A stretch of 64,000 nt of DNA from Pseudomonas mendocina (GTDB lineage: Bacteria; Pseudomonadota; Gammaproteobacteria; Pseudomonadales; Pseudomonadaceae): the NCBI RefSeq assembly GCF_003008615.1, contig NZ_CP027657.1, positions 2,790,001 to 2,854,000 of the forward strand, read 5' to 3'. The translations under genes and the position numbers were made by a program. Under the pieces are notes generated by a model, which did not search any database, had not been told where the DNA came from, and was given only the letters and a program-made list of their open reading frames with translations. Shown here piece by piece: positions 1 through 18,010 of the stretch. Each line of letters starts with the position of its first letter. The first letter of the stretch is position 1.

Positions 1-401
1 GCGGTATCCACCTCCACCGTGGCTTCGCGGAACTCCAGTACCTGGGTGCCGACGTAGCCGAGGCCCTCGGCCAGATCCAGGTAGTCCTGGCGAGTCATGC
101 CGCCACGACCGACGATGCGTCCGAGTAGCGCCGCGCGCCGGTCGGCCATGGATTGTCCGGCCGGGGCGCAGGCCGATGGCAGGCCGTAGCTCGCCTCCCA
201 GTCCTCGAAGCTGTAAAGCGCCTGGCGTGGGTCGGCTTCGCCGAGCAAGGCCAGTGCGCGCTCGTCGATACGGGCGAACTCGCGGGCCTGGCCGGCCAGC
301 AGGCGCTGCAGCGTTGAGTCCGGCGCGGCATTCCAGACGATGCCTGGCGGCAGCAGCGCAAACAGCTGCTGGCGGTAATCGTCAGCGCTCAGGCCAGCCA
401 C
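1..401 (-). CDS. Mu gp48-like tail protein (YmfQ/DUF2313), 3' end cut by window edge
   Basis: About 133 residues are visible, starting from a GTG at 401 with a strong GGGGAGG ribosome site just upstream and overlapping the end of the gp47-like gene by 13 bases. The N-terminus reads LSADDYRQQL and is followed by LLPPGIVWN, RLLAGQAREFARID and DWEASYGLP, which is the typical pattern of the YmfQ/DUF2313 family found downstream of baseplate J in Mu-like phages. These proteins are thought to sit at the baseplate periphery, linking it to tail fibres. The tail-fibre gene, which would set the target range, should follow to the left outside the window. Confidence 0.85.
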   Translation of the reverse strand, partial: MAGLSADDYRQQLFALLPPGIVWNAAPDSTLQRLLAGQAREFARIDERALALLGEADPRQALYSFEDWEASYGLPSACAPAGQSMADRRAALLGRIVGRGGMTRQDYLDLAEGLGYVGTQVLEFREATVEVDT

Positions 402-1438
402 TGCACACCTCCCCAGATCGGCAGATGGCCATGGGCATGCAGCACGTTGCTGGTCGGCCATTCCATCTCGTAGTCCGTGACCCCGGCAGCCGTGCCGAGG
501 GCGGTGCGAATCGACGAGATGGACAACGTGCCGCCCGGCTCTCCACTGCTCAGCACAAGGTTCTGCAGGGACTGCTCGACAGCCGCGCGGGTGCTGTTGT
601 TGTCCGGCGAGATACGCAGCCGCGGCGAGAAGGCCACGGGCACCGGCGCGATCACATAGACGTGGGCGGTGACGTTGCGCTGCGTCTGGATATGGCTGAA
701 GACCTCCTCGAGCAGTTGCTGGGAAGGCATCGGCCCACCTGGCGCTGCGTCGGCCATGATGCGCAGCACCACGGTGCCCGGCCCCATGCCAAGCGGATCT
801 TCCCAGGCGCGGCTGACCCCCGGTACCTGAAGGGCCCATTCGGCCCAGTCGCCCTCGGCGCCGCCACGGGGAATACGGGCGCGGCGACGCATGATCCGCT
901 CGCGCCAGCTGTCGAAACCCTCGATATCCTCACCACCACTGATACCCGCACCCACGACGGTGGCGAGGGTATTCACGCCAACCACCGGCGAGATCAGGCT
1001 CAACTGCTTGCCCACCGCCAGATCGGCTGCACGCCCGGCTTGCAACGCTTCGACCTCAGCGGTTGCGCTGCCGGCCAGCAGCACGGTGTCCTGGGTTAGG
1101 CGATACTCCCGGCTGTCGGCGTGCAGCAGGGTGCCGGCATCCAGCACGACTCCGGCGTTGCCGGTGAACTGCACCGGGCCGCTGGCCGTGGCGGCCTGAC
1201 GCCTAGGCACGCCGACACTGTGCAGGTGCAGCAGGTCGTCGTCGCAGGTCTCGGGAAACAGCTGCCGCTCCAGCCACTGCAGGTAGCCATAGAGGCCGTG
1301 GGCCACGCCCGCTTCGCTGGTGGCCAGGATGCGCGTCAGGCGGCTGGCGAGCAGTGCCTGGCTACCCGGCAGGCGCGAGACCAGATCATTGTCGACGCGC
1401 TCGATCAGTTCAGGCAGCGTCGGTCGCTTAAATCCCAT
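389..1438 (-). CDS. Baseplate J-like protein (Mu gp47)
   Basis: A 349-residue protein of the baseplate J family, the wedge component that joins the central hub to peripheral baseplate proteins in contractile tails. It starts MGFKRPTLPELIERV and contains the family core including SRLPGS, GVPRRQAATASG and GMGPGTV. It lies between the gp46-like and gp48-like genes, in Mu order, overlapping gp46 by 11 bases, which suggests translational coupling. Length is normal for Mu-type members. It looks intact and complete. Confidence 0.93.
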   Translation of the reverse strand: MGFKRPTLPELIERVDNDLVSRLPGSQALLASRLTRILATSEAGVAHGLYGYLQWLERQLFPETCDDDLLHLHSVGVPRRQAATASGPVQFTGNAGVVLDAGTLLHADSREYRLTQDTVLLAGSATAEVEALQAGRAADLAVGKQLSLISPVVGVNTLATVVGAGISGGEDIEGFDSWRERIMRRRARIPRGGAEGDWAEWALQVPGVSRAWEDPLGMGPGTVVLRIMADAAPGGPMPSQQLLEEVFSHIQTQRNVTAHVYVIAPVPVAFSPRLRISPDNNSTRAAVEQSLQNLVLSSGEPGGTLSISSIRTALGTAAGVTDYEMEWPTSNVLHAHGHLPIWGGVQWLA

Positions 1439-1877
1439 TGTTCACTCCCCATACATAGTCATAACGGCGCTCCAGTGCGGCACCGACCGGGCGCTGGATG
1501 CCCACAATCAGTTGCAGCACGCCACGGCGCAGGTGAATCGCCTCGACCTCCACGGCACTGGCAATGCCGTCCTCGGTCAGCCAGGTCAGCGCTTCGCGGG
1601 CGTACTCCTCGGCCCGGCGCAACACGCTGTCCATTTCCTTTTCCCGCCACAGCAACCACAGGCGCGAGCCATACGGGCGGTCTGCATAGGCATCGGCCCA
1701 CCAGCCACGGCGATCGTTGCCGCCGTCGGGCAGCTGATCCGCCGGCAAGGCTCGACGGTCGGTGTAGAGCGACAGGAGCACTGCGGTTTCCAGGCTCTCG
1801 TCGCGGGCCAGATCGCCGTTGGCGATTGCCAGGTCGAAGGCCTTGGCCTTCGTGTCGTAAAGCAGGGCAACGTCCAT
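1428..1877 (-). CDS. Phage GP46 family baseplate protein
   Basis: A 149-residue protein matching the Mu gp46 family (gpW/gp25-like baseplate wedge role). It begins MDVALLYDTKAKAFDLAI; the ATG at 1877 overlaps the stop of the gp45-like gene (TGATG), so I prefer it over the in-frame TTG one codon earlier. Typical features are the early LARDESLETAVLLSLYTDRR stretch, the WWADAY motif, and a C-terminal half suited to the LysM-like wedge fold. Its place between the spike and baseplate J is the normal Mu order. Confidence 0.9.
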   Translation of the reverse strand: MDVALLYDTKAKAFDLAIANGDLARDESLETAVLLSLYTDRRALPADQLPDGGNDRRGWWADAYADRPYGSRLWLLWREKEMDSVLRRAEEYAREALTWLTEDGIASAVEVEAIHLRRGVLQLIVGIQRPVGAALERRYDYVWGVNNGI

Positions 1878-2410
1878 CAAGACATCTCCGGTGAAGGGCC
1901 AGGCCCGCCGTGGTGGTGGGCGTTGTAACGGTCACGCATGGTCTGCATGGTGCTGCTGTGGTCACGTACTTCGCCGGCGACCTCGAGGTCGCCATCCATG
2001 CTCACCAGCGGGCAATCGACGAAGGCCAGGGGCAAGCCGGCGCCCTTGATCACGATGCCTTCGCGGGTCAGGTGCACGGACTGGCCGAGGTCGTCATAGA
2101 TGGCCACCTCACCGCTCTTGAGCGACGCCATGCGGTAGCGCCGGTCATCCACGGCAACCGCCACCAGGTGGGCGCGGGCACCGCCGACGGCCACCACCAG
2201 GGCCTCGGCGCCGACATGCGGCACCGCGGTATAGCCGTACTGCTGGAAGCGCTCGGCCCAGGCCGGAGACTCGCCCAGCAAGGTGACCTGCACGTTCTGC
2301 AGGGTCGTTTCGTCTTCCGTCATCTGCAGTACACCGCGGCTCACCAGCAGACGCAGGCGGCGCCACAGCGGGCTGAGCAGACGGGACATGCTGCGCTGAT
2401 CGATCACCAT
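1877..2410 (-). CDS. Mu gp45-like baseplate assembly / central spike protein
   Basis: 177 residues from the ATG at 2410 (MVIDQRSMSRLLSPLWRRL), overlapping the end of the gp44-like gene by 7 bases. The middle region VQVTLLGESPAWAERFQQYGYTAVPHVGAEALVV is the OB-fold region of Mu gp45/P2 GpV-type spikes; it is followed by repeated short beta strands (AIYDDLGQSVHLT, GIVIKGAG). Near the C-terminus is a histidine cluster (YNAHHHGG); related spikes hold an iron ion at the tip through histidines, and this cluster is a candidate for that site by inference. It would pierce the outer membrane of the target cell. Confidence 0.9.
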   Translation of the reverse strand: MVIDQRSMSRLLSPLWRRLRLLVSRGVLQMTEDETTLQNVQVTLLGESPAWAERFQQYGYTAVPHVGAEALVVAVGGARAHLVAVAVDDRRYRMASLKSGEVAIYDDLGQSVHLTREGIVIKGAGLPLAFVDCPLVSMDGDLEVAGEVRDHSSTMQTMRDRYNAHHHGGPGPSPEMS

Positions 2411-3465
2411 CCCCAGCTCCTCGCTTCGTTGTTTGTGCCAGCTGTTGCCAGTGGCGCGATGGGCACTGGCTCGAACGCGGCGACAGGAGCGACGCGCAGC
2501 TCGGTGTGCCGGCCCTGCGGGCCATCCAGCAGTTGCACCTCGCTGACCAGCAGTCGTTCGTTCAGCCCCAGGTAGCCATCCTGTACCTGCACCAGATCCC
2601 CTGGTCGCCATATGCCCTGCTCATGCATCCAGCCGCTCAGGCTGTAGCTGACGGTGCGCCCCTTGGCCCAGCGCATGCGCGCCTCCAGCTCGGCGCGGGC
2701 CGTGCAGTCACGACTGTCAGCTGGGATATCGCACAGCAGCAGGGTGCTGCGTGGGCGGCGCACCCGCGGATCCAGCGCGCTGCCGCTCGGGCTGGAGGCG
2801 TCGAGGCCGTGCCACTGGTTGTCGCCAGGTGTCTGCCCCTCGACCAAGTAATGGTTGAACCTGTCGCGATTGCTGAAGGTGGCGGCGGCCTGGCGGATGT
2901 TCTTGCCCAGAATTAGCGGGGTACGCACCTCGCGCTGCACGGCATGCACGATCAGCAGGCGCCCCTGGGCGTCGCTGACCACCCTGGCACCACGTAGCTG
3001 TGCGGCGCGCTCGATGGCCTCGGCAATGGGCTGCCCGTCCTCAAGGACGAACGAGCGAAACGGCCTGGCGGCGCCCAGGGTGTCCAGCACTTCGATGCCA
3101 TAGGGCTGTGCCAGGGTCTGGGCAATCTGCGCCAGTGTGAGGCCATCCAGGCGTCGTTCACGGCCGCTGCAGTCGATCAGGTCACCGGCCTTGCTGCGGC
3201 CACTGGCGACGACTGTGTGCTGATAGGCGGAATAGCCCAGGCGCACGTCTTCCAGGTGTCCGGTCAGCAGCAGCTCGCCGCCAACCGACAAGGTGCAGGG
3301 CACATCGGGCGAGAGCGGTCGCTTGCCCTGTGGTTCGCTCCAGCGCTCGCTCAGCGTCAGCGCATACTCGTCGGCGATCTGCTCCAGGGACAGGCGGATG
3401 CGCACCTCTTGCCAGCCGGAGTGGCGTTCACTGCCGATCTGCAGAATGACGGGCTCATCACTCAC
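2404..3465 (-). CDS. Mu gp44-like tail protein (baseplate hub)
   Basis: 353 residues, GTG start at 3465 (MSDEPVILQIGSERH), overlapping the gp43 gene by 8 bases. It matches the Mu gp44/P2 GpD-type hub protein (gp27-like fold): early WQEVRIRLSLEQIADEY, then GTVC-poor beta-rich domains and the C-terminal PGDLVQVQDGYLGLNERLLVSEV. The hub sits between tail tube and spike and is needed for baseplate assembly. Length and position are usual for the family. Confidence 0.88.
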   Translation of the reverse strand: MSDEPVILQIGSERHSGWQEVRIRLSLEQIADEYALTLSERWSEPQGKRPLSPDVPCTLSVGGELLLTGHLEDVRLGYSAYQHTVVASGRSKAGDLIDCSGRERRLDGLTLAQIAQTLAQPYGIEVLDTLGAARPFRSFVLEDGQPIAEAIERAAQLRGARVVSDAQGRLLIVHAVQREVRTPLILGKNIRQAAATFSNRDRFNHYLVEGQTPGDNQWHGLDASSPSGSALDPRVRRPRSTLLLCDIPADSRDCTARAELEARMRWAKGRTVSYSLSGWMHEQGIWRPGDLVQVQDGYLGLNERLLVSEVQLLDGPQGRHTELRVAPVAAFEPVPIAPLATAGTNNEARSWGW

Positions 3466-4705
3466 TGAGCACCTCCAGAGTCATCCCACCGCGCAGGGCG
3501 CCGGGGTGACGGACGTTGTTACGTACGCAGATCTCGTCGGCGCGTTTCGCATCGCCGTACAGGCGATGGGCGACCAAGAGGGCCGGCAGGGTGAGCTGCG
3601 GCGTGTATTCGGTCAGGTTGGGGATGGCCAGGGCACGCGTGCGCAGGTCGTTCGACAAGGCTGCGCGCAGCTCGACCAGGGCGTTGTAGACCTCGTCACT
3701 GATCGGCTCGGCCGTCTTCAGCTCACGGTCGATCAGGGCCAGGGCATCGCGGCCGGCCGCTGCGGCATCCTGGCGCGACAGCCAGTCTGTCTCCGCCACC
3801 ACCCGTGCCGCAGTCGTCGCCGCCAGGCGACCGTTGAGCTGGCTGGCGGCCAGAAGATTGCCGGCTATGCGGATGCTCTCCGGGCTGTCCGCCGCAGGCA
3901 GCAGCACTTGGCTGCCTGCGCTGGCCAGCTCACGCAGCCTGCGCACGGTTCTGGCCGGCGTACCAAGAGCCAGGCGCAGGGGGGCCGCACCATCCAGGGA
4001 CAACAGACTGTTGCCGCTGTACAGATTCAGGGCATGCAGCGGGCGCATTACCGCGTTGCGGATACGGTTGTAACCACCCAGAACCAACCCGGCGATATTC
4101 ATCGGGAAACGGATCACCTGAGTGATCTCTTCGGCTATACCCCCTGCGATCTGATCCAGGCTGTCGATTTCGGACGCCAGGGCTTGCTCGATGCTCGCCA
4201 GCGAGCGGCCTGTCAGACCTTCTACGCTCCAGCGATCGAGGAAGTCCTTCTCGGTCACCGCTTCAGCAAGCGTGGCAGCCTGACCGACCTCACGTTGGGT
4301 ATCCAATGTGGTGTCCAGGCTCGCTGGCAGGCCGGATTCCTTGAAGGTCACCGTGAACTCGCACATGCCGCCGAGGCTGGTTCTTTCATCGAAAGACACC
4401 GAGGTGGCCACTGCGGATATTGGCTTCCCGCCTAGAAAGGGGTTCACCAACTCAGCGGCACCCGGCGCATTCAGCGCATCCAGCAGCTTGTCGCGCTGCT
4501 CGTCGTAATTCTCACCTGCGACGAACAGTTGCAGAGTCCAGCTTTTGATCGCGCGGCCCTTGTCCGCGAAGAAGGCACCGTCGGCATTGGGTTTTTCTTC
4601 TTCCGTCCAGCGGCGGCCAGCAGAGGCTTTCGAGCTCGTCACGTAGAACGGCACGCCGCCGTAGCTGCCGCGTAGTTCGGGGTCTATACGGTCACGCCAG
4701 GACAT
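3458..4705 (-). CDS. Mu gp43-like 'DNA circularization' N-family tail protein
   Basis: 415 residues starting MSWRDRIDPELRGSYGG, the diagnostic N-terminus of the Mu gp43/DNA-circularisation N family. The family name is historical; in Mu this gene lies among tail/baseplate genes and its product is thought to act in tail or baseplate assembly. The N-terminal domain (VPFYVTSSKASAGRR, FVAGENYDEQRDKLL) is intact, and the C-terminus ends with a LysM-like segment (HRLYGDAKRADEICVRNN). It follows the tape measure after 81 bases with no gene. Confidence 0.88.
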   Translation of the reverse strand: MSWRDRIDPELRGSYGGVPFYVTSSKASAGRRWTEEEKPNADGAFFADKGRAIKSWTLQLFVAGENYDEQRDKLLDALNAPGAAELVNPFLGGKPISAVATSVSFDERTSLGGMCEFTVTFKESGLPASLDTTLDTQREVGQAATLAEAVTEKDFLDRWSVEGLTGRSLASIEQALASEIDSLDQIAGGIAEEITQVIRFPMNIAGLVLGGYNRIRNAVMRPLHALNLYSGNSLLSLDGAAPLRLALGTPARTVRRLRELASAGSQVLLPAADSPESIRIAGNLLAASQLNGRLAATTAARVVAETDWLSRQDAAAAGRDALALIDRELKTAEPISDEVYNALVELRAALSNDLRTRALAIPNLTEYTPQLTLPALLVAHRLYGDAKRADEICVRNNVRHPGALRGGMTLEVLSE

Positions 4706-4786: not shown

Positions 4787-6427
4787 TCACGACATCACCC
4801 CCAGCAAGCCGCTATCCAGGCTGTAGCCCAGGCCACCATTGGCCTTCATCGACGACACCCGTGGGTTGCCGTCCGCATCGATCCTGATTCGCAGTTCTCC
4901 GCCCACATCGGTGTAGCGGGGCGCCAGCAGGGGCGACTGACGATTGCCCAGCAGCGGTTGGCCCAGACCCGACAGGGTCGAGGCAGCGGCCTCGGGTTCA
5001 TCGGGGCGTTGCAGGCCCAGGCGCTTGACGACCCAGTCCGGCATCAACAGGGTCAGTTCGCCGATCTTCTGCCGCAGCCAACTGGTCAGTTGCTCGAAGC
5101 GCTCGCCGATACCGCTGGCCAGGCCGCCGATCCAGTCCCGGCCGAGCTGGCTCAGCGAGCGGCCGGCGAAGAGTTCGAACACCGCATCGACCGCCTTGAG
5201 CAACTGTGCGGCGGGGGTGAAGGCCAGCAGGCCTTGGAGGATTGCGCCGATGCCCTGGTCGAAGAACGCCCTGATCTGCGCCCACAGGCCAGCGAACCAC
5301 TCGGCGATAGCGCCCCAGTTGCTGTAGATCAGGTACGCCGCTCCAGCCAGCGCGGTGATACCGAGCACGATCCAGCCGATCGGTGTGGTGAACAGCGCCA
5401 CGGACAATGCGCGAATCCCGTCTATCGCCAGCGGAATCCACCTGCTGGCCATCTCACCGAGCGCGCTGCCGAACTGCAGCAAGGTCACGGCACCGGAGAA
5501 CAGCGAAAACACGAACCTGCCGGCCATCAGCTCCGCGACCAGGGTGATCAGGGGGACGAAGCCGCCCGCCATTCCTGCGACCCAGGTGAAGGCACTGGCC
5601 AACGCCTGAATGCCGGCAGCCAGTTGCTGCAGCCCTTGCACGATCTGCTGCGAGATCGCCTGGCGGTTGGCCTGCGACAGCTCGTTGAGGCTGCCGAGCC
5701 ACTGGTTGATGGTCGGCAGCAACGCGCCCAGCACGGTGTTCTTGATCGACTGCAGGGTGCTGGTCAGTTGGTTCATCTGCTGGATGTACAGGCGCGACTG
5801 CTCGACATCCTCATCGCTGATGATGGCGCCATTGTCTCGGCCTGCCTGGCGCAGCCGATCCAGCTCATCGCCAGACTGGCGCAGCAGGGTGATGAGTTGC
5901 TCGCCGTCGCGGCCGAACAGTTCGCCGATCACGCGCGGTGCCGCGCTGGCTTCGATACGGCCTAGGCGCGAAGCCACCAGTTCGAGGAGCTTCTCGGTGT
6001 CTCCGGCCGTGGCCTGCAGATCCTCAGCGCCAATACCCAGACGCTTGAACGACTCGGCCGCGCTGCTACCCCCGGTGGCCAGGAATTCCTCGGCTTGCAG
6101 GCTGAGTTCCTTGAGGCCGGAGACCAGGGCGCCATTGTCGGCGCCGAACTGCCGGGCGGCGTACTGCCACTCCTGCAGCCAGCCGAGCCCGACGCCAAGG
6201 CGCTCCGAGTTGCTCTGGACCTCGTTGCCAAGGGTGGCGAAGCCGTCGACCATACGCCCGACGTTCCCGCCAATCCCTGCTGCGACGGTGCCTATGGCGG
6301 CCAGGCGCTGACCGAACGAAGCGATCCGAGCGAAGGCGCCAGCCGAGGCTTCGGCAGCCTGGTTCAGGGCCGGGGTCAACCGATCCTGCATATCCAGGGT
6401 CACCGTTACTCTGATTTCATCCGCCAT
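4787..6427 (-). CDS. Tail tape measure protein (Mu gp42-like)
   Basis: 546 residues, starting MADEIRVTVTLDMQDRLTPAL at an ATG (6427) that overlaps the end of the frameshifted chaperone reading frame. The N-terminal half is coiled-coil and alanine/glutamine rich (LNQAAEASAGAFARIASFG, LQSIKNTVLGALLPTINQW). Two hydrophobic stretches, around residues 290 to 320 and 335 to 375 (IGWIVLGITALAGAAYLIYSNW), match the membrane-inserting regions seen in tape measures. The protein sets tail length; it is intact, so a full-length tail is expected. Confidence 0.92.
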   Translation of the reverse strand: MADEIRVTVTLDMQDRLTPALNQAAEASAGAFARIASFGQRLAAIGTVAAGIGGNVGRMVDGFATLGNEVQSNSERLGVGLGWLQEWQYAARQFGADNGALVSGLKELSLQAEEFLATGGSSAAESFKRLGIGAEDLQATAGDTEKLLELVASRLGRIEASAAPRVIGELFGRDGEQLITLLRQSGDELDRLRQAGRDNGAIISDEDVEQSRLYIQQMNQLTSTLQSIKNTVLGALLPTINQWLGSLNELSQANRQAISQQIVQGLQQLAAGIQALASAFTWVAGMAGGFVPLITLVAELMAGRFVFSLFSGAVTLLQFGSALGEMASRWIPLAIDGIRALSVALFTTPIGWIVLGITALAGAAYLIYSNWGAIAEWFAGLWAQIRAFFDQGIGAILQGLLAFTPAAQLLKAVDAVFELFAGRSLSQLGRDWIGGLASGIGERFEQLTSWLRQKIGELTLLMPDWVVKRLGLQRPDEPEAAASTLSGLGQPLLGNRQSPLLAPRYTDVGGELRIRIDADGNPRVSSMKANGGLGYSLDSGLLGVMS

Positions 6428-6904
6428 GTCGTTTCATTTCCTCTGCCAACTTTTCCGCCTGACCGAGCCACCAACGCAGGTCGCTCAGCTCCATTTCCAA
6501 CAGGTCAAGCGGGTTGAAACCGCCAAATGCCGTCGCCACGACGCGGATCAGGACATCCCAGTCCGCCGGGGCTTGGGCAAAAAAGGCTCGACTACCGCCA
6601 GCACGACCTCCATGTCGCGCGCATCCAGTTCGTCCATGGCTTGGGCCGGCACCCCCGCGAGGGCCCCGACCAGGGCCAGGCTCTGGGCAATGCCGCCACT
6701 GCCGGCCTGATCCATGGCCTTGAGGTGCTTGCCCTTGAGCGTCTTGACCAGGCTCAGCTCGGTGAGCGTGCGCTCACCCTCGAGCTTGCTGTGGCGGTAG
6801 GTAATGGGCGCCAGCAGGGTGACCCGCAGGGAGTCGCCCAGATCCTGGATACGCCCACGCTCTGCTTCACTCAGGCCGAGACCGGCAAGAAAATCGCTGG
6901 TCAT
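6417..6904 (-). CDS. Frameshifted tail assembly chaperone (gp41 plus -1 extension)
   Basis: Predicted -1 ribosomal frameshift product. The zero frame reads CCT TTT TTG near the 3' end; slipping back one base on T TTT TTG opens a frame that continues ..FFAQAPADWDVLIRV and ..FNPLDLLEMELSDLRWW, ending EEMKRHGG at a stop at 6417 to 6419, exactly over the start of the tape measure. This adds about 55 residues. Contractile-tail phages commonly make two chaperones this way (Mu gp41/42, P2 E/E', lambda G/GT). The extension's tryptophan-rich, helical character fits that role. Confidence 0.82.
6548..6904 (-). CDS. Mu gp41-like tail assembly chaperone, unshifted form
   Basis: 118 residues beginning MTSDFLAGLGLSEAERGR, with the family core LLAPITYRHSKLEGERTLTELSL and LKAMDQAGSGGIAQSLALVGALAGVP. 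It is the zero-frame product, terminating at 6548 just after the slippery heptamer. The chaperone is thought to coat the tape measure during tail tube polymerisation and not to be part of the finished tail. It lies 3 bases after the tail tube gene. Confidence 0.9.
   Translation of the reverse strand: MTSDFLAGLGLSEAERGRIQDLGDSLRVTLLAPITYRHSKLEGERTLTELSLVKTLKGKHLKAMDQAGSGGIAQSLALVGALAGVPAQAMDELDARDMEVVLAVVEPFLPKPRRTGMS
6578..6584 (-). other. Slippery heptamer T TTT TTG for programmed -1 frameshift
   Basis: On the minus strand the run of six T followed by G is in the zero-frame phase X XXY YYZ (codons TTT TTG), the canonical -1 slip site. It lies about ten codons before the gp41 stop, and the -1 frame stays open up to the tape-measure start. 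Confidence 0.82.
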
Positions 6905-6907: not shown

Positions 6908-7264
6908 TCAGATCCTTTCGCAGCGGTGCGCGGCGAGGTTCAGGCGCACCTTGCCTTCGGCTGTGGTGAGCTCTGCGGTCTCGGTCACGAAGGCACCGGT
7001 CAGCAGGTAGTCCTGGCCGTTGTCGCACTCGACCAGCACGGTGGCGTTGGTGATGGCGTTGAGGTCGATCAGATCGATCTCATCGGTATGCAGCACCGAG
7101 CACTGCAGCGTCGGCGCCACGGCTTCCTCGTTGTAATGCACGCGGTTGCCGGCCATGCGCGTGGTGCGCTTGACCCCGCCAGGGTTGAGGGTCGCCCCTT
7201 TCTCGGTGGGGAATTCACGGCCATCGATGCGAATCGTGGCGATCCCGGTGATTTTTCCGCTCAT
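6908..7264 (-). CDS. Phage tail tube protein (Mu gp40/M family)
   Basis: 118 residues, MSGKITGIATIRIDGREFPTEK onward, with GGVKRTTRMAGNRVHYNEE characteristic of the Mu-type tail tube protein family. It forms the inner tube that is driven through the target envelope when the sheath contracts. It lies directly after the sheath gene (15-base gap), the normal gene pair in contractile systems. Length matches Mu M. Confidence 0.93.
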   Translation of the reverse strand: MSGKITGIATIRIDGREFPTEKGATLNPGGVKRTTRMAGNRVHYNEEAVAPTLQCSVLHTDEIDLIDLNAITNATVLVECDNGQDYLLTGAFVTETAELTTAEGKVRLNLAAHRCERI

Positions 7265-9682: not shown

Positions 9683-9706
9683 GGGGCCATCTTGGAGCGC
9701 CGGCCC

Positions 9707-10613: not shown

Positions 10614-11227
10614 CAGTGCAGACCCTCCATGGCGTCGATCAGGGCATCCAGCTGCGCGGCAGTGTTGCGGCACTGCTCGGCGTAGCGGATATGGTGGGCG
10701 AGGAGCGCGCGCTGGCCGAGGCCTGAATCGAGCTGCTCAAGGGCTCGGGTTTCGGCGCCTTGCGCAGCAGCTCGGCCGGGATCGGCGGACGCGGGCATAT
10801 GGGCGCCGCTGGCTTCGTCCCACAGGCGGACAAAGCCACGAGTGAACACGCAAGCAGGCAGAGGTTCAGGCGCGCTATCGAGCGCCGTGCGGTACAGGTC
10901 GTTGACACGGGCAATCTCCCCGGAAAGTCGGTCGGTGGTTCGGCGGTGTTGGCGTTGCTGCTCGGCCAGATCTGCGGCAAGCCGGTCGTTACGCGCCAGT
11001 TCTTGTCGCAGGCGGTCTGTCGCCGCCTCGGCGGCATCCGCGGCGCTGCGCGCGCGCTGCAGTTCCTGCTGCTGGTGGGCACTGCGCAATCGGGCCAGCT
11101 CCAGCTCACCTTCGGCCCTCGCCTTGGAATAACCGGCGTCATGGGCCGACTGCTCGATAAAACCGATCAGCAGATACAGGGCCAGTGCGCCCAGCAGTGG
11201 CAGCCAGAGGCGCAGATAGCTGCTCAC
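10613..11227 (-). CDS. Rz-like inner-membrane spanin (i-spanin)
   Basis: 204 residues from a GTG at 11227 that overlaps the endolysin stop. It begins SSYLRLWLPLLGALALYLL, a single N-terminal membrane anchor, then a long coiled coil (ELELARLRSAHQQQELQRARSAADA onward), the plan of phage Rz proteins. With Rz1 it would bridge the periplasm and fuse the membranes in the last step of lysis. The Rz1 gene is embedded in another frame of its 3' half. Confidence 0.85.
   Translation of the reverse strand: MSSYLRLWLPLLGALALYLLIGFIEQSAHDAGYSKARAEGELELARLRSAHQQQELQRARSAADAAEAATDRLRQELARNDRLAADLAEQQRQHRRTTDRLSGEIARVNDLYRTALDSAPEPLPACVFTRGFVRLWDEASGAHMPASADPGRAAAQGAETRALEQLDSGLGQRALLAHHIRYAEQCRNTAAQLDALIDAMEGLH
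10639..10908 (-). CDS. Rz1-like outer-membrane lipoprotein (o-spanin), embedded in Rz
   Basis: An overlapping frame inside the Rz gene, starting with GTG at 10908 behind a GGGGAG ribosome site 7 bases away. The 89-residue product has a positively charged start (TARRSIAR), a hydrophobic core and a lipobox LSAC with Cys29, followed by the proline-rich stretch KPAAPICPRPPIPAE typical of Rz1. Nested Rz/Rz1 pairs occur in lambda and P2-type phages. The lipobox and proline-rich mature part make this convincing even though the start is GTG. Confidence 0.8.
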   Translation of the reverse strand: MSTTCTARRSIARLNLCLLACSLVALSACGTKPAAPICPRPPIPAELLRKAPKPEPLSSSIQASASARSSPTISATPSSAATLPRSWMP

Positions 11228-11679
11228 AGTCCGGCCTCGCACAGCTTGCGCTCCGCTGCGCGGCGCTTGACCAGGCCGGGGAGTACGCGCCCTCCGGCAT
11301 ATACCCAGCGACTCAGCTCCGCACATGCACCGGCGATATCACCCTTATTGAGCTTGCGCAGCAGGGTGCTGCGTTCGAACGCGCCACCACCGACGTTGTA
11401 GACGAAGGACGCCAGCGCGGCCCGGCGGCTATCGGGTTGCGCCTGGCGGATCAGGCGATCGACGGTGGCGACAGCCCGCCCCAGTTCGGCAGCCAGCAGC
11501 GCATCGCACTCGGCGTCGGTTTTGCTCTGGCCGAGGGCCACGCCCTGGGTGATGCCGTCGCAGATGGTCGGGATACCGACCGGGTCGAGGTAGGCCACCA
11601 GGCTACGGCCTTCGAAATAGCCCACCAGCGGCAGGGCGATGGCCAGGGCACCCGCGGCGAGACGGGCCTTGCCGTTCAT
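11224..11679 (-). CDS. Phage lysozyme / SAR-type endolysin (GH24)
   Basis: 151 residues from the ATG at 11679 (MNGKARLAAGALAIALPLVG). The hydrophobic, alanine-rich N-terminus looks like a signal-anchor-release segment for Sec export without a holin. Glu23, Asp32 and Thr38 form the E-x8-D-x5-T triad of T4-type lysozymes (GYFEG .. YLDPVGIPT). It breaks peptidoglycan to release particles. The start overlaps a 28-codon upstream frame (ATGA). Confidence 0.93.
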   Translation of the reverse strand: MNGKARLAAGALAIALPLVGYFEGRSLVAYLDPVGIPTICDGITQGVALGQSKTDAECDALLAAELGRAVATVDRLIRQAQPDSRRAALASFVYNVGGGAFERSTLLRKLNKGDIAGACAELSRWVYAGGRVLPGLVKRRAAERKLCEAGL

Positions 11680-11762
11680 TTGCCCATCCCTGCCGGGCAG
11701 GCGCATGCCGACTCGGCCGAGCAGAAGTCGCCGTTGGGGTAATCAAGATGGAACGCGGACAC
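11676..11762 (-). CDS. 28-residue cysteine-rich peptide upstream of endolysin
   Basis: A GTG at 11762 with a GGAG site 8 bases upstream opens a frame SAFHLDYPNGDFC..ACACPAGMGK whose stop overlaps the endolysin start (ATGA). Three cysteines are in its last 15 residues. It is the first frame of the lysis block. No family recognised; it could be a leader that couples endolysin translation, or a small real protein. Confidence 0.4.
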   Translation of the reverse strand: MSAFHLDYPNGDFCSAESACACPAGMGK

Positions 11763-11810
11763 TGCGCTTGCTCCGATGCAAAAGGAGCAGTGACAGTAAG
11801 ACGCGGCAAT

Positions 11811-11849
11811 CGCCGCTCGGGATTAAAGCGCTTTGCTACAGCAACCAGG
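11811..11849 (-). promoter_or_regulatory. Putative late promoter of lysis block (copy A)
   Basis: Nearly identical to the element at 9707 to 9746 (AGCAAA-N-C-N-CTTTAATCCCG core with matching flanks on the minus strand). It stands about 50 bases upstream of the first lysis frame and about 67 bases downstream of the Mor/C gene, the place of Mu's Plys. TTTAAT may be the -10 box. Confidence 0.62.
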
Positions 11850-11915
11850 CAGACCAGTGGGGCTCGGCGCAGGCTTATTCAATGGCGGCCAGGCGCCCTC
11901 TGTAAAGCCTTTTGT

Positions 11916-12317
11916 TCAGAACAGCGAAGGCTGCAACCGTTGCCGATGCAGGGCGCGCTGCTCGGCGATGATCGAATAGATCTGCACCACCGTCAGCTCG
12001 AATGCCTCGGCCAGATCGTCGACATTGTTACCCTTGTATCTGGCCCAGATATCCCGATCGCGCAGTGCACGCTCCAGCACATCGCCCTTGGGCATGTACA
12101 GCTGACGGCCGCCGGCATAGCGGGACAAGGCGCGCACCGTGACGAAGGCCCGGGTTCGGGCGGCCTCGGGGGCATCGCCGGCGCGCAGGTAGGCCGCCTC
12201 TATCACGCTGACCAGGTCGGCCAGTGCCTTCGGCCATTTGGCGCGGATCGCCGGCGTCTGCAGATGCTCCAGAATCTCTTTCGACAGCTCGTCGCCGAGC
12301 AGGTCTTTATCGCTCAT
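11916..12317 (-). CDS. Mor/C family late transcription activator
   Basis: 133 residues: MSDKDLLGDELSKEILEHL, then the dimerisation part and the C-terminal helix-turn-helix (RYKGNNVDDLAEAFELTVVQIYSII), as in Mu Mor and C. Mor activates the middle promoter and C the late promoters of Mu; only one such protein is present here, so it probably does the late job. It sits directly upstream of the lysis block, as C does in Mu. The likely targets are the two repeated elements at 11811 and 9707. Confidence 0.92.
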   Translation of the reverse strand: MSDKDLLGDELSKEILEHLQTPAIRAKWPKALADLVSVIEAAYLRAGDAPEAARTRAFVTVRALSRYAGGRQLYMPKGDVLERALRDRDIWARYKGNNVDDLAEAFELTVVQIYSIIAEQRALHRQRLQPSLF

Positions 12318-12341
12318 ACCACCCTCCTGTGGCGTGTGGCC

Positions 12342-12419
12342 TCATAGGCCTGTGAGCAGGCTGTGCATGGCCAGGAAGGCCGTGCGTGTGCATTGGTCGA
12401 TGTTCACTCGGCTGCTCAT
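12342..12419 (-). CDS. Possible 25-residue ORF between DUF3164 and Mor/C
   Basis: ATG at 12419, MSSRVNIDQCTRTAFLAMHS onward, stop at 12342, 22 bases before the Mor/C ATG. The ribosome site is weak and no family was recognised. It occupies the place where Mu-like phages usually carry GemA-type and other early genes, which are absent here. Reported as a low-confidence candidate. Confidence 0.25.
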   Translation of the reverse strand: MSSRVNIDQCTRTAFLAMHSLLTGL

Positions 12420-12516: not shown

Positions 12517-13176
12517 TCAGGCGCTCAGCGCCTGCTGGCCAGCCATGCCGGGCATGATCACTGCGGCGATATCCAGGCTGATAGGCCGATACTGTTCGCT
12601 GTCAGCGATGCGCTCGTAGATACGCAGGTACTCCTTGGAGCCGATCACCTGGCAGGCCTCGCCGATCGCCTTCATCGCCCGCTGCCAGCGCTCGTCGTTG
12701 ATCTCCAGGCGACGCAGGGCCAACACCCGCGCCGTGCGGATCTCACCCTTGGTGTCCGTGCGGAAGGCATCGTTGACCAGGGTAACTACCTCCGGCCGGG
12801 CTCCCTCGGTCCATTCGGCCAGGCATTCGTCGATCAACGCCCGGGCGGCCTGCAGGCGCTCGTCGAAGCTGATCGAGTCCTGCACGGAGATCTGCAACTT
12901 GTAGCGGCCATCGAAACTCAGCAGGGTGACGTTGCCCTTCTTGCCGCCGACCCGGGCGCCGTACTCCTCGAAACTCATTTCGATGAAGGCACGTACATCA
13001 CCGAATACCGTGGCCTTGAAACTGGCCAGGGCGTTGTTCAGGGTGCCGGCCTGATCGACCAGGCGGCGCACCAGGGCATCGCGCTCCTGGTCGATGGGCT
13101 TGATCATGCTCTCCGGAATCAAGCGGCCCTGTGCATCCTGGCGGTAGCCCATGGGCAGGGGCTGTTGCATGTTCAT
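12517..13176 (-). CDS. DUF3164 family protein
   Basis: 219 residues from the ATG at 13176, chosen for its GGAGGA ribosome site; an in-frame ATG at 13206 also has a site. The N-terminus GYRQDAQGRLIPESMIKPIDQ matches the family pattern 'xGYxxnaqGxlvPxsqIKxiD', and FEEYGARVGGKKGNVTLLSFDGRYKL is the conserved centre. DUF3164 proteins are common in the early region of Mu-like phages next to transposition genes. Function unknown. Confidence 0.85.
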   Translation of the reverse strand: MNMQQPLPMGYRQDAQGRLIPESMIKPIDQERDALVRRLVDQAGTLNNALASFKATVFGDVRAFIEMSFEEYGARVGGKKGNVTLLSFDGRYKLQISVQDSISFDERLQAARALIDECLAEWTEGARPEVVTLVNDAFRTDTKGEIRTARVLALRRLEINDERWQRAMKAIGEACQVIGSKEYLRIYERIADSEQYRPISLDIAAVIMPGMAGQQALSA

Positions 13177-13198
13177 CCGTGAATCCTCCGATAGTGGC

Positions 13199-13585
13199 TT
13201 AGACATGGTTGCGCTCCTTGCGCCGGGCGCAGTTGGGGTTGTTGGCGCAGTGCTGGCAGGCACGCCAGAGCTGCATGGCCTGGGGGTTATGGGTGGGCGC
13301 CTTGCGTTGGTGATGGCTTTGGCACTGCTCTGCAGTGATGGCATTGCCCAGAGCCGTGCACTGGATGCGGCCCAGTGTTTCCAGCACCCGTTGTTCGACA
13401 GCGGTGGTCGCCGCTGGATAGCGGTTGATCAGCACCAGAGACACCGCCGTGCGGCTCAGTCCCAGTCGCTTGCCTGCGAGGGTACGGTTGCTCTGCTCGA
13501 CCTCCCTGGCCAGCAGGGTGATGAATAGAGGTGGCTGTGTGCCCCAGGCACGGATGTCGACACTGCTGCCGCTACCGGTCGCCAT
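13199..13585 (-). CDS. HTH protein with C-terminal cysteine cluster, Mu-like early region
   Basis: 128 residues from the ATG at 13585, overlapping the MuB-like stop (TGATG). A helix-turn-helix is visible around residues 36 to 58 (LAGKRLGLSRTAVSLVLINR). The C-terminal part carries Cys residues spaced CTALGN..EQC and ACQHCANNPNC, a possible metal site. Similar proteins follow MuB in B3-type Pseudomonas transposable phages; the role is unknown, probably regulatory. Confidence 0.7.
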   Translation of the reverse strand: MATGSGSSVDIRAWGTQPPLFITLLAREVEQSNRTLAGKRLGLSRTAVSLVLINRYPAATTAVEQRVLETLGRIQCTALGNAITAEQCQSHHQRKAPTHNPQAMQLWRACQHCANNPNCARRKERNHV

Positions 13586-14307
13586 CACACCAGCCTCCGC
13601 ACGGGGGCCTGGCCGGTGAACCAGCCGCGTTTGCCCCAGGCGGCGAGGCTGACAGTGTCCATGCCGCTGGCCGAGGCCTCGCTGTTGACCCGATGCAGAT
13701 TCACCGCCATGCGTCGCAGGCAGCCACGCGTGGCTTTGGTCAGATCAGCCAGCAGATCCTCGGCCAGAGCCAGGCCCGGGTAACTCTCGCAGGCAAGGCG
13801 CCTGACATCGGCCAGGCTGGCGGCCTGCGCGGGTACCCATTCGAGAACCCGGTTGTGCAGGCGCTCGAGCTTGATCAGGCTGGGCACCAGGCTTTCTTCC
13901 CCGATCAGGACGATGGCGCCCTGGCTCGCGTTGTAGATATCGGTGAGGACATTGGCGAGCGCCTTGTCCAGCAGGTATTGCACGTCATCGATGATCAGCG
14001 GTCGGCCGGACAGCCCCAACTGCTCGGCGATCTGATCGACCATCTCGGACAGGGTACGTGCCGGCGTCAGCGACATCTCGCAGAGAATCGCCAGCAGAAA
14101 GGCCTTCTTGCTCCAGGTATCACGACATTCCACGTAGTAGGCGCGGTGCAGGCTGGCGGCGTGGGCTGCGGCCACCGATTTGCCCAGGCCGCTGGCGCCG
14201 TACATCACCACCAGGCCCGGCAGGCCGGCCGGACGCTGCTGGGCGCGCTCGATGGCGGCCGACAACAGGCCGACGTTGGTAAGAGGGACGATTTTCGGGA
14301 TGCTCAT
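13585..14307 (-). CDS. MuB-like transposition target ATPase
   Basis: 240 residues from the ATG at 14307 (MSIPKIVPLTNVGLLSAAI). Walker A is YGASGLGKS near residue 35, Walker B LIIDDVQY near residue 105, with an arginine-containing sensor region after IGEESLVPSL. MuB binds target DNA, recruits the transpososome and gives target immunity. It is shorter than Mu B (312 aa), as usual for B3-type phages. It lies 17 bases after the transposase gene. Confidence 0.92.
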   Translation of the reverse strand: MSIPKIVPLTNVGLLSAAIERAQQRPAGLPGLVVMYGASGLGKSVAAAHAASLHRAYYVECRDTWSKKAFLLAILCEMSLTPARTLSEMVDQIAEQLGLSGRPLIIDDVQYLLDKALANVLTDIYNASQGAIVLIGEESLVPSLIKLERLHNRVLEWVPAQAASLADVRRLACESYPGLALAEDLLADLTKATRGCLRRMAVNLHRVNSEASASGMDTVSLAAWGKRGWFTGQAPVRRLV

Positions 14308-14323
14308 GGTAGAACTCCTCTGT

Positions 14324-16375
14324 TCAGTCGCGAGCCTGCTCGGCCGCGTAGGTGTCGTACATGCGTTGAATGGATTTGAAGTCGGTGTGCTGCGGGTAAG
14401 CCGTATGCCAGCGAGCTTGTTCTTCACCCAGGTACTGGCCCGCACGATGGCGGTCATCCAGCTCCTGCCAAAGGTCATAGCGAGCCATGGCGTTTTCCGG
14501 CACCTCGAATTCGGCCTGCCGGCGCACCTGCTCCAAGGCGGCCTGTTCGCGGGCAGCGTCCAACTGTTCAGCAGACAGCTCGGCAATACGCGCTTCTGGT
14601 GTAATTACGCATAGCTCCACGTCATGACCGGTCACGGTCTTGGCCTTCCTGACCAGGCGCGCCAGTTGACCGCGCTCGCGCTTCGCGGCGGCCTTGTCCA
14701 ACAGGCTTTGTGGCATGGCCGGGGTGCTGTTGCCGTTTAGCATCGCCTCACCGATCAGCTCACCCTCCAGGGTGTGTACCCACACGCGGCTGGCATCACG
14801 AAAGTCATAGGCCACGCTTACTTGCTGGCCATGCAATGGTTCCAGCTCTGCCAGGAAGTAGATGCTGCCGCTGAAGCGCACCTCGGCCCGATGGGTGGTT
14901 CGTACCACCCGTGGTCGAATCAATGCGGACAACACATCTGCATCGGCTTTGAGCGGCTCCCAGCCTTCTGTCAGCGCTGATTGCCAGGACTCCAACGGGC
15001 TCTGGTTGCGCAACTTCCCGCTGTGGATATCGCGGCATTTCGCCAACCCGCGGTGCGGGGTGCTGTTGTACTGGTCGAGGGCGTTCTGCAGATCCGCGAA
15101 AAAGGCCTCGAAGGTGGGAATCTGTTTCGGCTGGCTACCAGAGGCCAGTTGTTTGCGTGACAGGCGGTGGACTCGAGTCGCTGCCTCGCTGTCCATATCG
15201 ACGCCGACATAACTGGCATAGGCCTTGGCCAGACGTACCAGAATGGTCTTGTGTGGGCGCTCGATGACACCACGCGCTTGCGAGTTGTAGGGCAGCGAAT
15301 GGGTGATGGTGCCACCCAGGCGGTCGTTCACCTCATAGACGACGGCGTTGTCGAAGCCGCTGCCGTTGTCGACATACAGAACCTTGTACATGCCAACCCG
15401 GCTTACCCCGTCGCGCAGGGCATCGAGGGTGGCGATGGTCGACTCGGCCAGGTTGACGGAAAAACCGACGATGCGGCGGGTGCCCCAGTCGATCACCAGC
15501 GTGATCTCGGGACGGAATATCTGTCCGGTCAGCGGGTTGATTACCTCGGCATCGAAGGTATGACCGTCAGCGATCCAGACATCATTGGGCCAGAGCATAT
15601 CGGCAGCGCGGCGGTTGAATGCCTTGAGGGACTTCAGTTCCCTGCTGCCCATCCGCCCCTGCTCGCGTACCTGGGGCGCCAATTTGGCCAGGAAGCGGCG
15701 CACGACATGGATGCTTGGGCAGCCGGGATATTCGACCTGAAAGGTCGCATATGCCGCCTCAATGCTCGGCTTCTGCGGGCGCTGGTAGTGGCGGAGGAAC
15801 ACCGGCGCCCAGGTCGGCACGCTCATGTCCGGTTTGCGCCGCACGGGAGCCAGGGCAATTTCGCCCCGTCTGCGAAAGTCCGCCAGCCAGCGTTTCAACG
15901 TTCGTTCACTGAGGCTGCGCTCGGCATTCTTGCGATCGTTGGCCCGCTCGACGCGCTCGTCGAGGTACGCGCTCAGGTGACCACTACGCGCCAGCTCGAC
16001 CAGGGTCATGATCGCTTGCTGCTGGCTAACCAGTTGGCTCAAGCGTTCGATCTCGCGGATGAGCGCCACCCGAGCAGCCATCACCTCGCGCTGTCCATCG
16101 GTCAGACGTGAGGCGCCATCGCGCTGAGGCGCAATCAGCAGATGATGAGCGGTGGGGCGAGGGGGCGGCGCAGGCAAATCGCCCTGTACCGAACGTGCAA
16201 CGAGGGCGGTCTGCACCTCAAGGGGCAGTATGGAAAAGCTGTACTCGATGGCTTTCGATCCAGCCCTACGCCTGCCCTCCCAGCTCTTGCGCTCGGCCAG
16301 CAACCTGACATTGCGGTCGGTGCCCGGCATGCCGGGCAAGCCGGCCAGCTCCTTGGCGGTGTACCAGCTATGCAT
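14324..16375 (-). CDS. MuA-like DDE transposase
   Basis: 683 residues from the ATG at 16375 (MHSWYTAKELAGLPGMPG), which aligns with the MuA N-terminus (xxLWVSxKExxxLPGLP type). A winged-helix DNA-binding region (to about residue 70) is followed by an HTH/linker region around 150 to 175 and the RNase H catalytic core with Asp270 (WIADGHTFD), Asp336 (YVDNGSG) and Glu372 (RGVIERPHK), matching MuA Asp269, Asp336, Glu392. The C-terminal domain would bind MuB. All catalytic residues are intact, so the element may still be able to transpose. Confidence 0.95.
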   Translation of the reverse strand: MHSWYTAKELAGLPGMPGTDRNVRLLAERKSWEGRRRAGSKAIEYSFSILPLEVQTALVARSVQGDLPAPPPRPTAHHLLIAPQRDGASRLTDGQREVMAARVALIREIERLSQLVSQQQAIMTLVELARSGHLSAYLDERVERANDRKNAERSLSERTLKRWLADFRRRGEIALAPVRRKPDMSVPTWAPVFLRHYQRPQKPSIEAAYATFQVEYPGCPSIHVVRRFLAKLAPQVREQGRMGSRELKSLKAFNRRAADMLWPNDVWIADGHTFDAEVINPLTGQIFRPEITLVIDWGTRRIVGFSVNLAESTIATLDALRDGVSRVGMYKVLYVDNGSGFDNAVVYEVNDRLGGTITHSLPYNSQARGVIERPHKTILVRLAKAYASYVGVDMDSEAATRVHRLSRKQLASGSQPKQIPTFEAFFADLQNALDQYNSTPHRGLAKCRDIHSGKLRNQSPLESWQSALTEGWEPLKADADVLSALIRPRVVRTTHRAEVRFSGSIYFLAELEPLHGQQVSVAYDFRDASRVWVHTLEGELIGEAMLNGNSTPAMPQSLLDKAAAKRERGQLARLVRKAKTVTGHDVELCVITPEARIAELSAEQLDAAREQAALEQVRRQAEFEVPENAMARYDLWQELDDRHRAGQYLGEEQARWHTAYPQHTDFKSIQRMYDTYAAEQARD

Positions 16376-16466
16376 GGCCTTTGCCCCCAGCGCGCAGGAA
16401 CTGGTCTGCCAGGGCGCAGCTCGGCAAGGCAAGAATGCCGCCATGGCTGTCTTTTCCGTGATGCAT
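16368..16466 (-). CDS. 32-residue ORF between Ner and transposase
   Basis: ATG at 16466, MHHGKDSHGGILALPSCAL, stop overlapping the transposase start (ATGCATAG). A good GGAG site lies inside the end of the Ner gene. No family recognised. The overlap on both sides suggests it is translated and couples Ner and transposase synthesis. Confidence 0.45.
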   Translation of the reverse strand: MHHGKDSHGGILALPSCALADQFLRAGGKGHA

Positions 16467-16468
16467 GT

Positions 16469-16819
16469 TTATTTCTCCGTCCCTGTTTTACGGTGCCCAA
16501 GGTCATAAGCTGGGGTATTCTCTTGGGCGTTGCCTGCCATGGCCTCGCCACGGCCTGGCCGGCAGCGTTTGGGCTGCTCCTTGGACAGCCAACGCTCGGG
16601 CCAGATCAGCGCTGGCGACAGGCCCAGAGCACTGGCGATGGCACGCTCGACCCGCGGGTATGGCAGGTGTTTGGCATTTTTTACCGCGGAGCCAGTGACC
16701 TTGAGCGTTCTGGCGATATCGGCTAGCGAGGTGCCCCTCAGTCGCAGCTGAAACTTGATCCATTCCCATCGATGAGAAGGCGCAGCGGGAATATCGACTT
16801 CTACTGTGTTCATGCTCAT
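16469..16819 (-). CDS. Ner-like regulator with C-terminal extension
   Basis: 116 residues; HRWEWIKFQLRLRGTSLADIARTLKVTGSAVKN is the Ner/Nlp helix-turn-helix, then LPYPRVERAIASALGLSPALIWPERW, the conserved end of Ner. Ner represses both repressor and early promoters to set the lytic course. Mu Ner is 75 residues; here about 35 more charged residues follow. The gene is first in the early operon, divergent from the repressor. Confidence 0.9.
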   Translation of the reverse strand: MSMNTVEVDIPAAPSHRWEWIKFQLRLRGTSLADIARTLKVTGSAVKNAKHLPYPRVERAIASALGLSPALIWPERWLSKEQPKRCRPGRGEAMAGNAQENTPAYDLGHRKTGTEK

Positions 16820-16904: not shown

Positions 16905-16908
16905 TCGG

Positions 16909-16961: not shown

Positions 16962-16976
16962 AGGCCAGGTAAATCA

Positions 16977-17672
16977 ATGAGTTACGCAGAATCGGATGAA
17001 AAGGATAGCCATGAGCCAGATCATCCCATTCCTCTTGGCGGAATCGGATGCTTTGGAGAGCGTCTCAAGGAGATGATGAGCAACACAGGTGCACGCGCTT
17101 TTGCGCGTAAATGTGGGCTTTCTGAAGGAGCGATACGCAGTTATCTGAGCAAGGAAACCTACCCCACCCTCGACCGCCTCGCGCAGATAGCCCAGGCCAA
17201 TGGGGTCGACCCGTTGTGGCTGGCGTTTGGCGCGACCAGCAAGGCCGAGGAAGACACTTACGCCTACGTGCCGCTCTACGATGCCCGTTGCAGTGCTGGA
17301 AATGGCGCCTGGAACGAGCGCAGCCGCATCCTCGTGAGCTTGTCGTTCACGCGCTACAGCCTGCGCAAGAAAGGCCTCAATCCGGCCGATCTGGCGTGTC
17401 TGCGGGTCGACGGAGACTCAATGACCGGGCTGCTGGAGGATGGCGACACGGTCATGGTCGATCAACGCCGCAATACGCTGGAAGGCGAAGGCGTGTATGT
17501 AGTTCTGCTGGATGACCACCTGTATGCCAAGCGCTTACAGCGTCAGTTCGATGGTTCGGTGCTGATCATCAGCCACAATAGGGAATACCAGCCCATGACG
17601 GTTCCCAAGGATCGTCTGGCGGAACTACAGATCATTGGTCGTGTTGTCTGGGCCGGAGGCTGGATGGTCTGA
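16977..17672 (+). CDS. S24-family (LexA-like) phage repressor
   Basis: 231 residues. An HTH region (residues 35 to 70, ARAFARKCGLSEGAIRSYLS) is followed by an S24 self-cleavage domain: cut site Ala107-Gly108 (RCSAGNG), Ser148 (VDGDSM) and Lys185 (LYAKRLQ). Such repressors cleave themselves when RecA is activated, so the prophage should be SOS inducible, unlike Mu itself. It is divergent from the early operon. A hairpin follows its stop. Confidence 0.94.
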   Translation: MSYAESDEKDSHEPDHPIPLGGIGCFGERLKEMMSNTGARAFARKCGLSEGAIRSYLSKETYPTLDRLAQIAQANGVDPLWLAFGATSKAEEDTYAYVPLYDARCSAGNGAWNERSRILVSLSFTRYSLRKKGLNPADLACLRVDGDSMTGLLEDGDTVMVDQRRNTLEGEGVYVVLLDDHLYAKRLQRQFDGSVLIISHNREYQPMTVPKDRLAELQIIGRVVWAGGWMV

Positions 17673-17687
17673 AGACTGGTAGTCTTC
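17671..17687 (+). terminator. Hairpin after the repressor gene
   Basis: GAAGACT and AGTCTTC form a perfect 7-bp stem with a GGT loop, overlapping the repressor stop codon. There is no clear T run, so it may act in RNA stability or as a weak terminator. Confidence 0.5.
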
Positions 17688-17689
17688 AG

Positions 17690-18010
17690 GATTGCTCTTG
17701 CGGGAGCTCGGCTATTTTAGGCGGCAGGTTTTGACATCCTGCCTGCCACCAATGCCAAACACTCTACGAATGGCCATGGCTTCTGTCTGTTTCAGCTTTG
17801 GCACTGCCGATCCGAGATTGCATCGTTGTCCTGCTGTTCGACGCACCAGCTGTAACGTGGCAACCCATCTCATCTTTTCGACACCTCCTCCAAGTAGCTG
17901 TGCCAATACAACTGCAAGCTCACAGCTGTGCGCACCGATTAATAGGGGCATCTTCGAGGCGAGTCTCCCCTTCTGGTGCGCACGGCAGCGCACCATGCAA
18001 GAGTTTGGTC
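17690..18010. other. Prophage end / host junction, no gene
   Basis: About 320 bases with no convincing gene. GTGCGCA-type motifs recur at 17928 and 17974 to 17995; the last is a perfect 8-bp inverted repeat with a 6-base loop and resembles the host REP-like family, so it may be host DNA. The region must contain the phage left end with its transposase binding sites, but the boundary cannot be set from one end. A 94-residue minus-strand frame (17712 to 17996) has no recognised family. Confidence 0.6.

Follow-up and report, generated by a model that had tools for sequence, protein, structure and literature searches.

Tailocins are regarded as domesticated prophages. The available text of PMC12090994 traces the R-type tailocins of Pseudomonas syringae back to phage Mu and their P. 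aeruginosa counterparts to P2, and the accessible part of PMC7815802 gives mutS-cinA/recA as a tailocin hotspot. BceTMilo of Burkholderia cenocepacia is described, in the sections of PMC5411513 at hand, as a headless contractile tailocin of the P2/KL3 type whose induction is RecA-dependent. For Desulfovibrio piger, the available text of PMC12724379 reports Mu-like prophages and no genomic evidence of tailocins. Nothing on transposases appears in the accessible portions of PMC6331570 or PMC10598620, and full-text literature searches, with subscription papers outside their scope, returned no description of a transposase-bearing Mu-type tailocin. Here we describe a Mu-like element in a 64,000-nt stretch of the Pseudomonas mendocina chromosome (assembly GCF_003008615.1, contig NZ_CP027657.1, positions 2,790,001 to 2,854,000 of the forward strand; "the window" hereafter means this whole stretch). 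Judged from its gene content and its relatives, it is probably a Mu-derived R-type (contractile) tailocin locus, early in domestication, with its transposition genes still carried.

The main open reading frames (ORFs) were annotated with PHROGs and Pfam. In phage order they comprise a divergent S24 repressor, a helix-turn-helix (HTH) gene at the Ner position, transposase, MuB, an ORF at 13199–13588, DUF3164 and Mor; then endolysin, a spanin candidate, a membrane protein at the DUF2730 position, a scar with a leader, gp37, DUF2635, sheath and tube; and, up to the tail-side end, gp41, tape measure, gp43, gp44, gp45, gp46, gp47, gp48, fibre, DUF4376 and DUF1353. Between the 10230–10616 gene and gp37 (8991–9554) there is only a stretch with no recognisable genes and a 44-codon ORF with a protease I-like start. 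When 12 proteins of Chromohalobacter phage YPCBV-1 and nine of Alteromonadaceae phage B23, taken from their packaging and head regions, were used as tblastn queries, no row at E<=1e-5 was obtained in the window or in the IMG/VR record L106. These results bear out the headless Mu-like layout proposed in a preliminary description of this DNA, which had also named head or terminase genes elsewhere as a point to check: none was detected in the element, and a sister-type terminase gave 0 matches in the whole genome versus three in the positive-control genome (one terminase type was sought). A Portal_Mu family search was uninformative, since its controls gave no match. The genes are as follows.

1–398, minus strand: gp48 baseplate gene (Phage_Mu_Gp48), extending to L003:9778 left of the window
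389–1438, minus strand: gp47, Baseplate_J (PHROGs/Pfam)
1428–1880, minus strand: gp46 (Pfam GP46)
1877–2410, minus strand: gp45 (Phage_Mu_Gp45; the Pfam match is to a longer ORF, 1877–2611)
2404–3465, minus strand: gp44/P baseplate hub (PHROGs/Pfam)
3458–4705, minus strand: gp43/N, DNA_circ_N (PHROGs/Pfam)
4787–6427, minus strand: tape measure, 546 amino acids (aa) (PHROG matches; no Pfam match)
6548–6904, minus strand: gp41-type tail assembly chaperone (PHROGs/Pfam)
6908–7264, minus strand: tail tube (PHROGs/Pfam)
7280–8767, minus strand: tail sheath (PHROGs/Pfam)
8767–8994, minus strand: DUF2635, gp38 position (PHROGs/Pfam)
8991–9554, minus strand: gp37, start 9554 aligned to the sisters (Phage_Mu_Gp37; PHROG label portal)
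10230–10616, minus strand: small membrane protein occupying the DUF2730 position (PHROG 462, hydropathy; no Pfam match)
10613–11224, minus strand: spanin candidate with a membrane segment (PHROGs, hydropathy; no Pfam match)
11224–11679, minus strand: endolysin (Phage_lysozyme)
11916–12317, minus strand: Mor/C-type late activator (PHROGs/Pfam)
12517–13206, minus strand: DUF3164 (Pfam)
13199–13588, minus strand: ORF without a Pfam match, its DNA similar in all four sisters
13585–14307, minus strand: MuB-like ATPase (PHROGs/Pfam; longer ORF 13585–14586)
14324–16444, minus strand: MuA-like DDE transposase (PHROGs/Pfam)
16469–16819, minus strand: HTH_35 protein (Pfam HTH_35), which we take to be Ner-like from its position
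16977–17672, plus strand: S24-peptidase HTH repressor (Pfam)

The "portal protein" label that PHROG 490 attaches to the gp37 protein was rejected, and gp37 was taken as a tail gene, because the Pfam call is Phage_Mu_Gp37 and the portal-like gene of the sisters is a different one. Within the spanin candidate, an ORF in another frame (10639–11142) has a weak match to an Rz-like spanin. The MuB reading frame is open. The transposase triad reported earlier as Asp270/Asp336/Glu372 holds if Met24 is the start; with numbering from the first ATG the residues become D293/D359/E395.

Four full Mu-like prophages, early regions included (L117–L124), were used as sisters; they come from P. toyotomiensis, P. 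segetis, Pseudomonas sp. F(2018) and P. sichuanensis. They share with the element the gene order, the type of ends and the leader before protease I, and their sheaths are 86, 79, 78, and 77% identical to that of the element, with most other tail genes at 49–87% (tblastn). They differ in carrying ~8.8 kb of head genes at the spot where the element is headless and in having a longer early region; their lengths are 35,095, 34,904, 34,463, and 35,087 bp, and all four are flanked by a perfect target duplication of 5 bp. The sheath search found six loci in genome contigs and 13 in viral contigs. Upstream of gp37, each of the six genome loci carries homologues of the terminase, the portal, and the capsid region, and among the matches listed 10 of the 13 viral loci carry homologues of the head region ahead of the sheath, although in the shortest of those 10 pieces only the last such homologue remains. 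Of the three other viral loci, L094 and L095 start with the sheath and the third, L106, is this element; the viral loci are partly redundant, as L099/L100 look like the same elements as L089/L092. The nearest phage records, YPCBV-1 (sheath 72%) and B23 (54%), have the same gene order and, unlike the element, are full phages with head genes. The YPCBV-1 record also holds a diversity-generating retroelement (Avd plus reverse transcriptase) beside its last tail genes (L107:31362–33095). Sister transposases are 52–60% identical to that of the element, below the sheath identities, and nearer ones occur in the P. toyotomiensis genome, on a different contig (74%), and in the protein collection (79%); the family is therefore mosaic. 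The P. toyotomiensis genome has three terminase matches, two of them equal-scoring on different contigs, pointing to several Mu-like prophages in this one strain.

The edges of the loss can be read against the sisters. There, a gene-free stretch lies between a gp31-type gene and protease I, and in all four it ends in ATGAAAACGA, the protease I start. In the element, a protease I-like start is followed by a direct jump to just before gp37; at the other edge, the DUF2730-position gene gives way to ~310 bp without a convincing sister match and then to the kept leader. The features of this region, with a related box in the lysis leader, are given below.

9548–9682, minus strand: 44-codon ORF with a start like protease I, marking the edge of the second deletion and overlapping the start of gp37 (sister comparison)
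9680–9920, minus strand: kept leader, a candidate late control region with a GTTAGA-N5-GTTAGA repeat and a CTTTAATCCC box (matches the pre-protease I stretch of the sisters)
9921–10229, no strand: scar of ~310 bp, not matched convincingly by any of the four sisters (sister comparison)
11819–11828, minus strand: CTTTAATCCC box of the lysis leader, similar in three of four sisters

Head genes are thus gone from either side of the spared leader, which now precedes the tail operon. Two deletions are the simplest account, and one complex event is possible. This two-sided head loss, with a leader retained upstream of the tail operon, is to be regarded as new. By analogy with phage Mu, in which a late promoter lies before gene I, the 9680–9920 leader may act as a promoter; a sigma-70 promoter scan of 9400–12400 found none. 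The box, as CTT(T/G)A(A/G)TCCC, occurs in the pre-protease I stretch of two of the four sisters and is degenerate in a third. The GTTAGA-N5-GTTAGA repeat (9838–9862 in the element), upstream of the leader box, is conserved here and in all four sisters (GTTAAA in one of them) and is possibly the binding site of a late regulator.

Further losses are evident against the P. toyotomiensis sister. The MuB-Mor interval is ~1.3 kb here vs ~5.3 kb (about 4 kb gone), and neither the 108-aa ORF that this sister has between its Mor and endolysin genes nor its Com/D12-methyltransferase end is present. The earlier description of the regulation and transposition set as intact must be limited accordingly. Sister prophages end with a D12-class adenine methyltransferase gene (L118:16971–17923; L123:388–1149), preceded in L118 by a Mu Com-like gene.

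The tail genes themselves are undamaged, as the preliminary description had it: ten are free of internal stops, and gp46, gp48, fibre, DUF4376, and DUF1353 are open up to their stop codons. Selection was assessed by counting codons at which one of the five lineages differs from the other four, in 11 tail and four control genes (gp46 was left out, as was DUF2730, which had no match in one sister). In the tail genes the element lineage shows 83.3 nonsynonymous vs 82.7 synonymous changes, as compared with 20.0:47.0, 31.2:48.8, 33.0:195.0, and 64.8:138.2 in the sisters (pooled 149.0:429.0) and with a neutral expectation of ~2.48:1 (kappa 2, based on 10 of these 11 genes). Fisher p is ~8e-9 with all sisters as the reference and 0.006 with the one from P. 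toyotomiensis, values that serve as a guide only, since the sequences are related and non-independent and the element branch includes time before the head loss. The control genes (transposase, MuB, Mor, repressor) gave 29.5:52.5 here vs ~58.8:133.2 in the sisters pooled. By these counts the tail genes are constrained, yet looser than in full phages, which would fit either a change of job or partial relaxation.

Alignment with the four sisters sets the whole element at 21,119 bp (genome positions 2,786,806–2,807,924). The span of 1–17990 given earlier must be revised: the element runs 3,195 bp further left, and its other end is at 17924. The additional DNA holds the rest of gp48 and the genes for the fibre (504 aa), DUF4376, and DUF1353, so that the leftward extension called for at that time has yielded tail-fibre genes with open frames, the other phage end, and no detected head genes.

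1–17924, no strand: portion of the element within the window (ends computed against the sisters)
17880–17924, no strand: repressor-side element end, inward TGTGAG... (alignment with the sisters)
L003:6806, left of the window: tail-side element end (alignment with the sisters)

TG...CA ends bearing the sister-phage repeats are present on both sides and look intact. The 5-bp target duplication, perfect in four of four sisters, is absent (ACAGC vs CCAAC), which suggests an adjacent deletion or rearrangement, or age. An ABC-transporter operon flanks the element on the left and an rRNA-methyltransferase-like gene on the right. These flanks are ~90% identical to P. toyotomiensis, where the site is empty, with both flanks 11 bp apart and no element. 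Among nine relative loci surveyed, both flanks lie close together in three, the P. toyotomiensis site being one of them, and only one side matched in six; an exact empty site was not obtainable from them because the intergenic DNA is too divergent. The host chromosome is a single contig of 5,773,548 bp with completeness listed as 100. L106 is identical to the element over 19,531 bp, covering its left part to the last tail gene; it is probably from the same isolate as the window genome and hence not an independent confirmation.

We searched related genomes for the same headless layout, as the preliminary description had proposed, and among 398 genus and 390 order genomes found it in none but the own genome, the only one of its species in the set. 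The transposase is present in 21/398 genus genomes (E<=1e-20) and 8/390 order genomes (E<=1e-30), and the sheath in 127/398 and 9/390, own genome included in each count. The two lie within 10 kb of each other in the own genome only (positions were compared by eye, and pairs split between contigs escape in the many drafts); that genome has one transposase and one sheath match at the thresholds used. In one order genome (G556) they are ~20 kb apart on one contig, which is full-phage spacing. Another genome has equal-score transposase matches at G354:C1:4149510–4151576 and 4229321–4231387, each with one TAG stop, on opposite strands and ~80 kb apart; these are possibly two copies of one Mu-like prophage. 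The transposase also found 32 viral loci, one of which is this element; a sheath was seen in none of the other 31, many of them short. The DNA of the deletion joint had some match, mostly short, in 34 of 249 genus genomes (own included), and the joint was spanned in none of the 249 but the own, the strongest match covering the DUF2730/spanin side only. The joint peptide had no match in the protein collection, a weak test as short ORFs are rarely called.

The tailocin interpretation draws its support from a tail set running from gp37 to fibre chaperone-like genes, from the lysis genes and S24 repressor, and from open frames under constrained evolution. Further support comes from the four sisters, whose gene order is the same and which carry head genes here, from losses that flank a spared leader, and from a genome in which no sister-type terminase occurs elsewhere. 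Tape measure relatives of the same 546 aa (96 and 94% identity) in other samples also favor it; they are known as proteins only, P0002 with a longest contig of 28,991 bp and P0003 with one of 14,623 bp. Upon DNA damage, RecA would trigger self-cleavage of the S24 repressor, and expression of the early operon, with its Ner-like gene, transposase, MuB, and Mor, would follow. Mor would activate the lysis leader and the kept leader before gp37, tails would assemble, and cell lysis would release headless contractile tails that kill neighbours selected by the fibre. The transposase would be either not yet lost or in use during induction to multiply the tail genes. From the earlier interpretation, the headless layout, contractile tail, lysis genes, S24-type repressor, MuB, and DDE triad are present; we infer from the genes alone the induction route with its SOS control, the promoter role of the leader, the particle and its killing activity, and continued mobility.

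Several observations weigh against a tailocin. Hydropathy examination identified no holin in the element; the tail genes are under looser constraint than those of the sisters, which also fits partial relaxation; the transposition genes are retained, unlike in the sampled known Mu-derived tailocins; and no second headless copy was found among the genus and order genomes or the viral loci, so that the layout is documented in a single element. The main rival, possible though rather unlikely, is an ordinary defective prophage in which chance deletions are too recent for decay, nothing is selected, and any tails are accidental. That only one such element was found, that accessory and early genes were also lost, and that the nonsynonymous share is raised in the tail genes would all suit it, and the element need not be old, given that P. 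toyotomiensis lacks it at the site. However, the losses at several separate places leave the tail, lysis, and regulatory genes untouched, along with the leader of the tail operon, the tail lineage lies well below the neutral ratio (albeit on a branch that includes time before the head loss), and the absent target duplication suggests age or rearrangement.

If the element is a tailocin, it might also be a transposing one: once induced, it would replicate by transposition and multiply the tail genes before lysis. We consider this doubtful, and two findings speak against recent movement: the target duplication is missing, and the searches turned up no second headless copy. If it were true, damage to the chromosome would cost nothing in a cell that is dying anyway, rare survivors or DNA uptake by other cells could spread the element to new sites, and the weapon locus would be a mobile element too.

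A phage satellite, mobilised by the heads that a Mu-like helper phage provides, whether resident in the same cell or infecting it, and supplying its own tails, would explain why the ends, transposase, and MuB are retained. It is very unlikely: the genome lacks a sister-type terminase, 21 kb is far under the ~35 kb of the sisters, and to our knowledge satellites do not usually encode tails. An assembly artefact, with real head genes dropped by a misjoin at 9547–10229, a possibility raised earlier, is highly improbable, because the chromosome is one contig listed as complete and recognisable sister sequence lies inside the gap, while genes are missing at several separate places and no sister-type terminase occurs elsewhere, even though the identical IMG/VR record may derive from the same assembly.

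BceTMilo, a headless contractile tailocin from a prophage with RecA-dependent induction, resembles the system proposed for the element and differs in its relation to the P2-type phage KL3, the element being Mu-type; BcepMu as the parent of BceTMilo is ruled out by the P2/KL3 assignment in the available text of PMC5411513. Mu-derived Pseudomonas tailocins (R-type syringacins and other Mu-type sheath loci) have sheaths mostly ~35% identical to that of the element. In two Mu-type sheath loci examined, blast gave no head protein and no transposase of the element's kind. One of them, L215, shares with the element a headless Mu-type contractile tail, an S24 repressor, and a lysis gene; it is annotated with an S24 repressor, holin, tail terminator, sheath, and an insertion sequence (IS)-type (DDE_Tnp_1) transposase gene, not of Mu type. 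A search for the Mu-transposase C-domain in 41 single-contig genomes (sheath identity ~34–37%), taken from the 127 with a sheath match, found it near the sheath in 0/41 and somewhere in the genome in 13/41. The element lies elsewhere than the known Mu-derived Pseudomonas tailocin sites (mutS-cinA/recA or trp), and it has a Mu transposase. With a Mu-like transposable phage it has in common the DDE transposase, MuB, and the ends, without the 5-bp duplication and the head and packaging genes. As it can be compared with full sisters at 77–86% sheath identity and its deletion edges are readable, the step from phage to weapon is open to comparison, and the question is raised whether a tailocin can make any use of transposition genes. 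Set beside the known systems, what is new is its closeness to full phages, the readable, two-sided head loss around a spared leader, and the transposition genes that it has kept.

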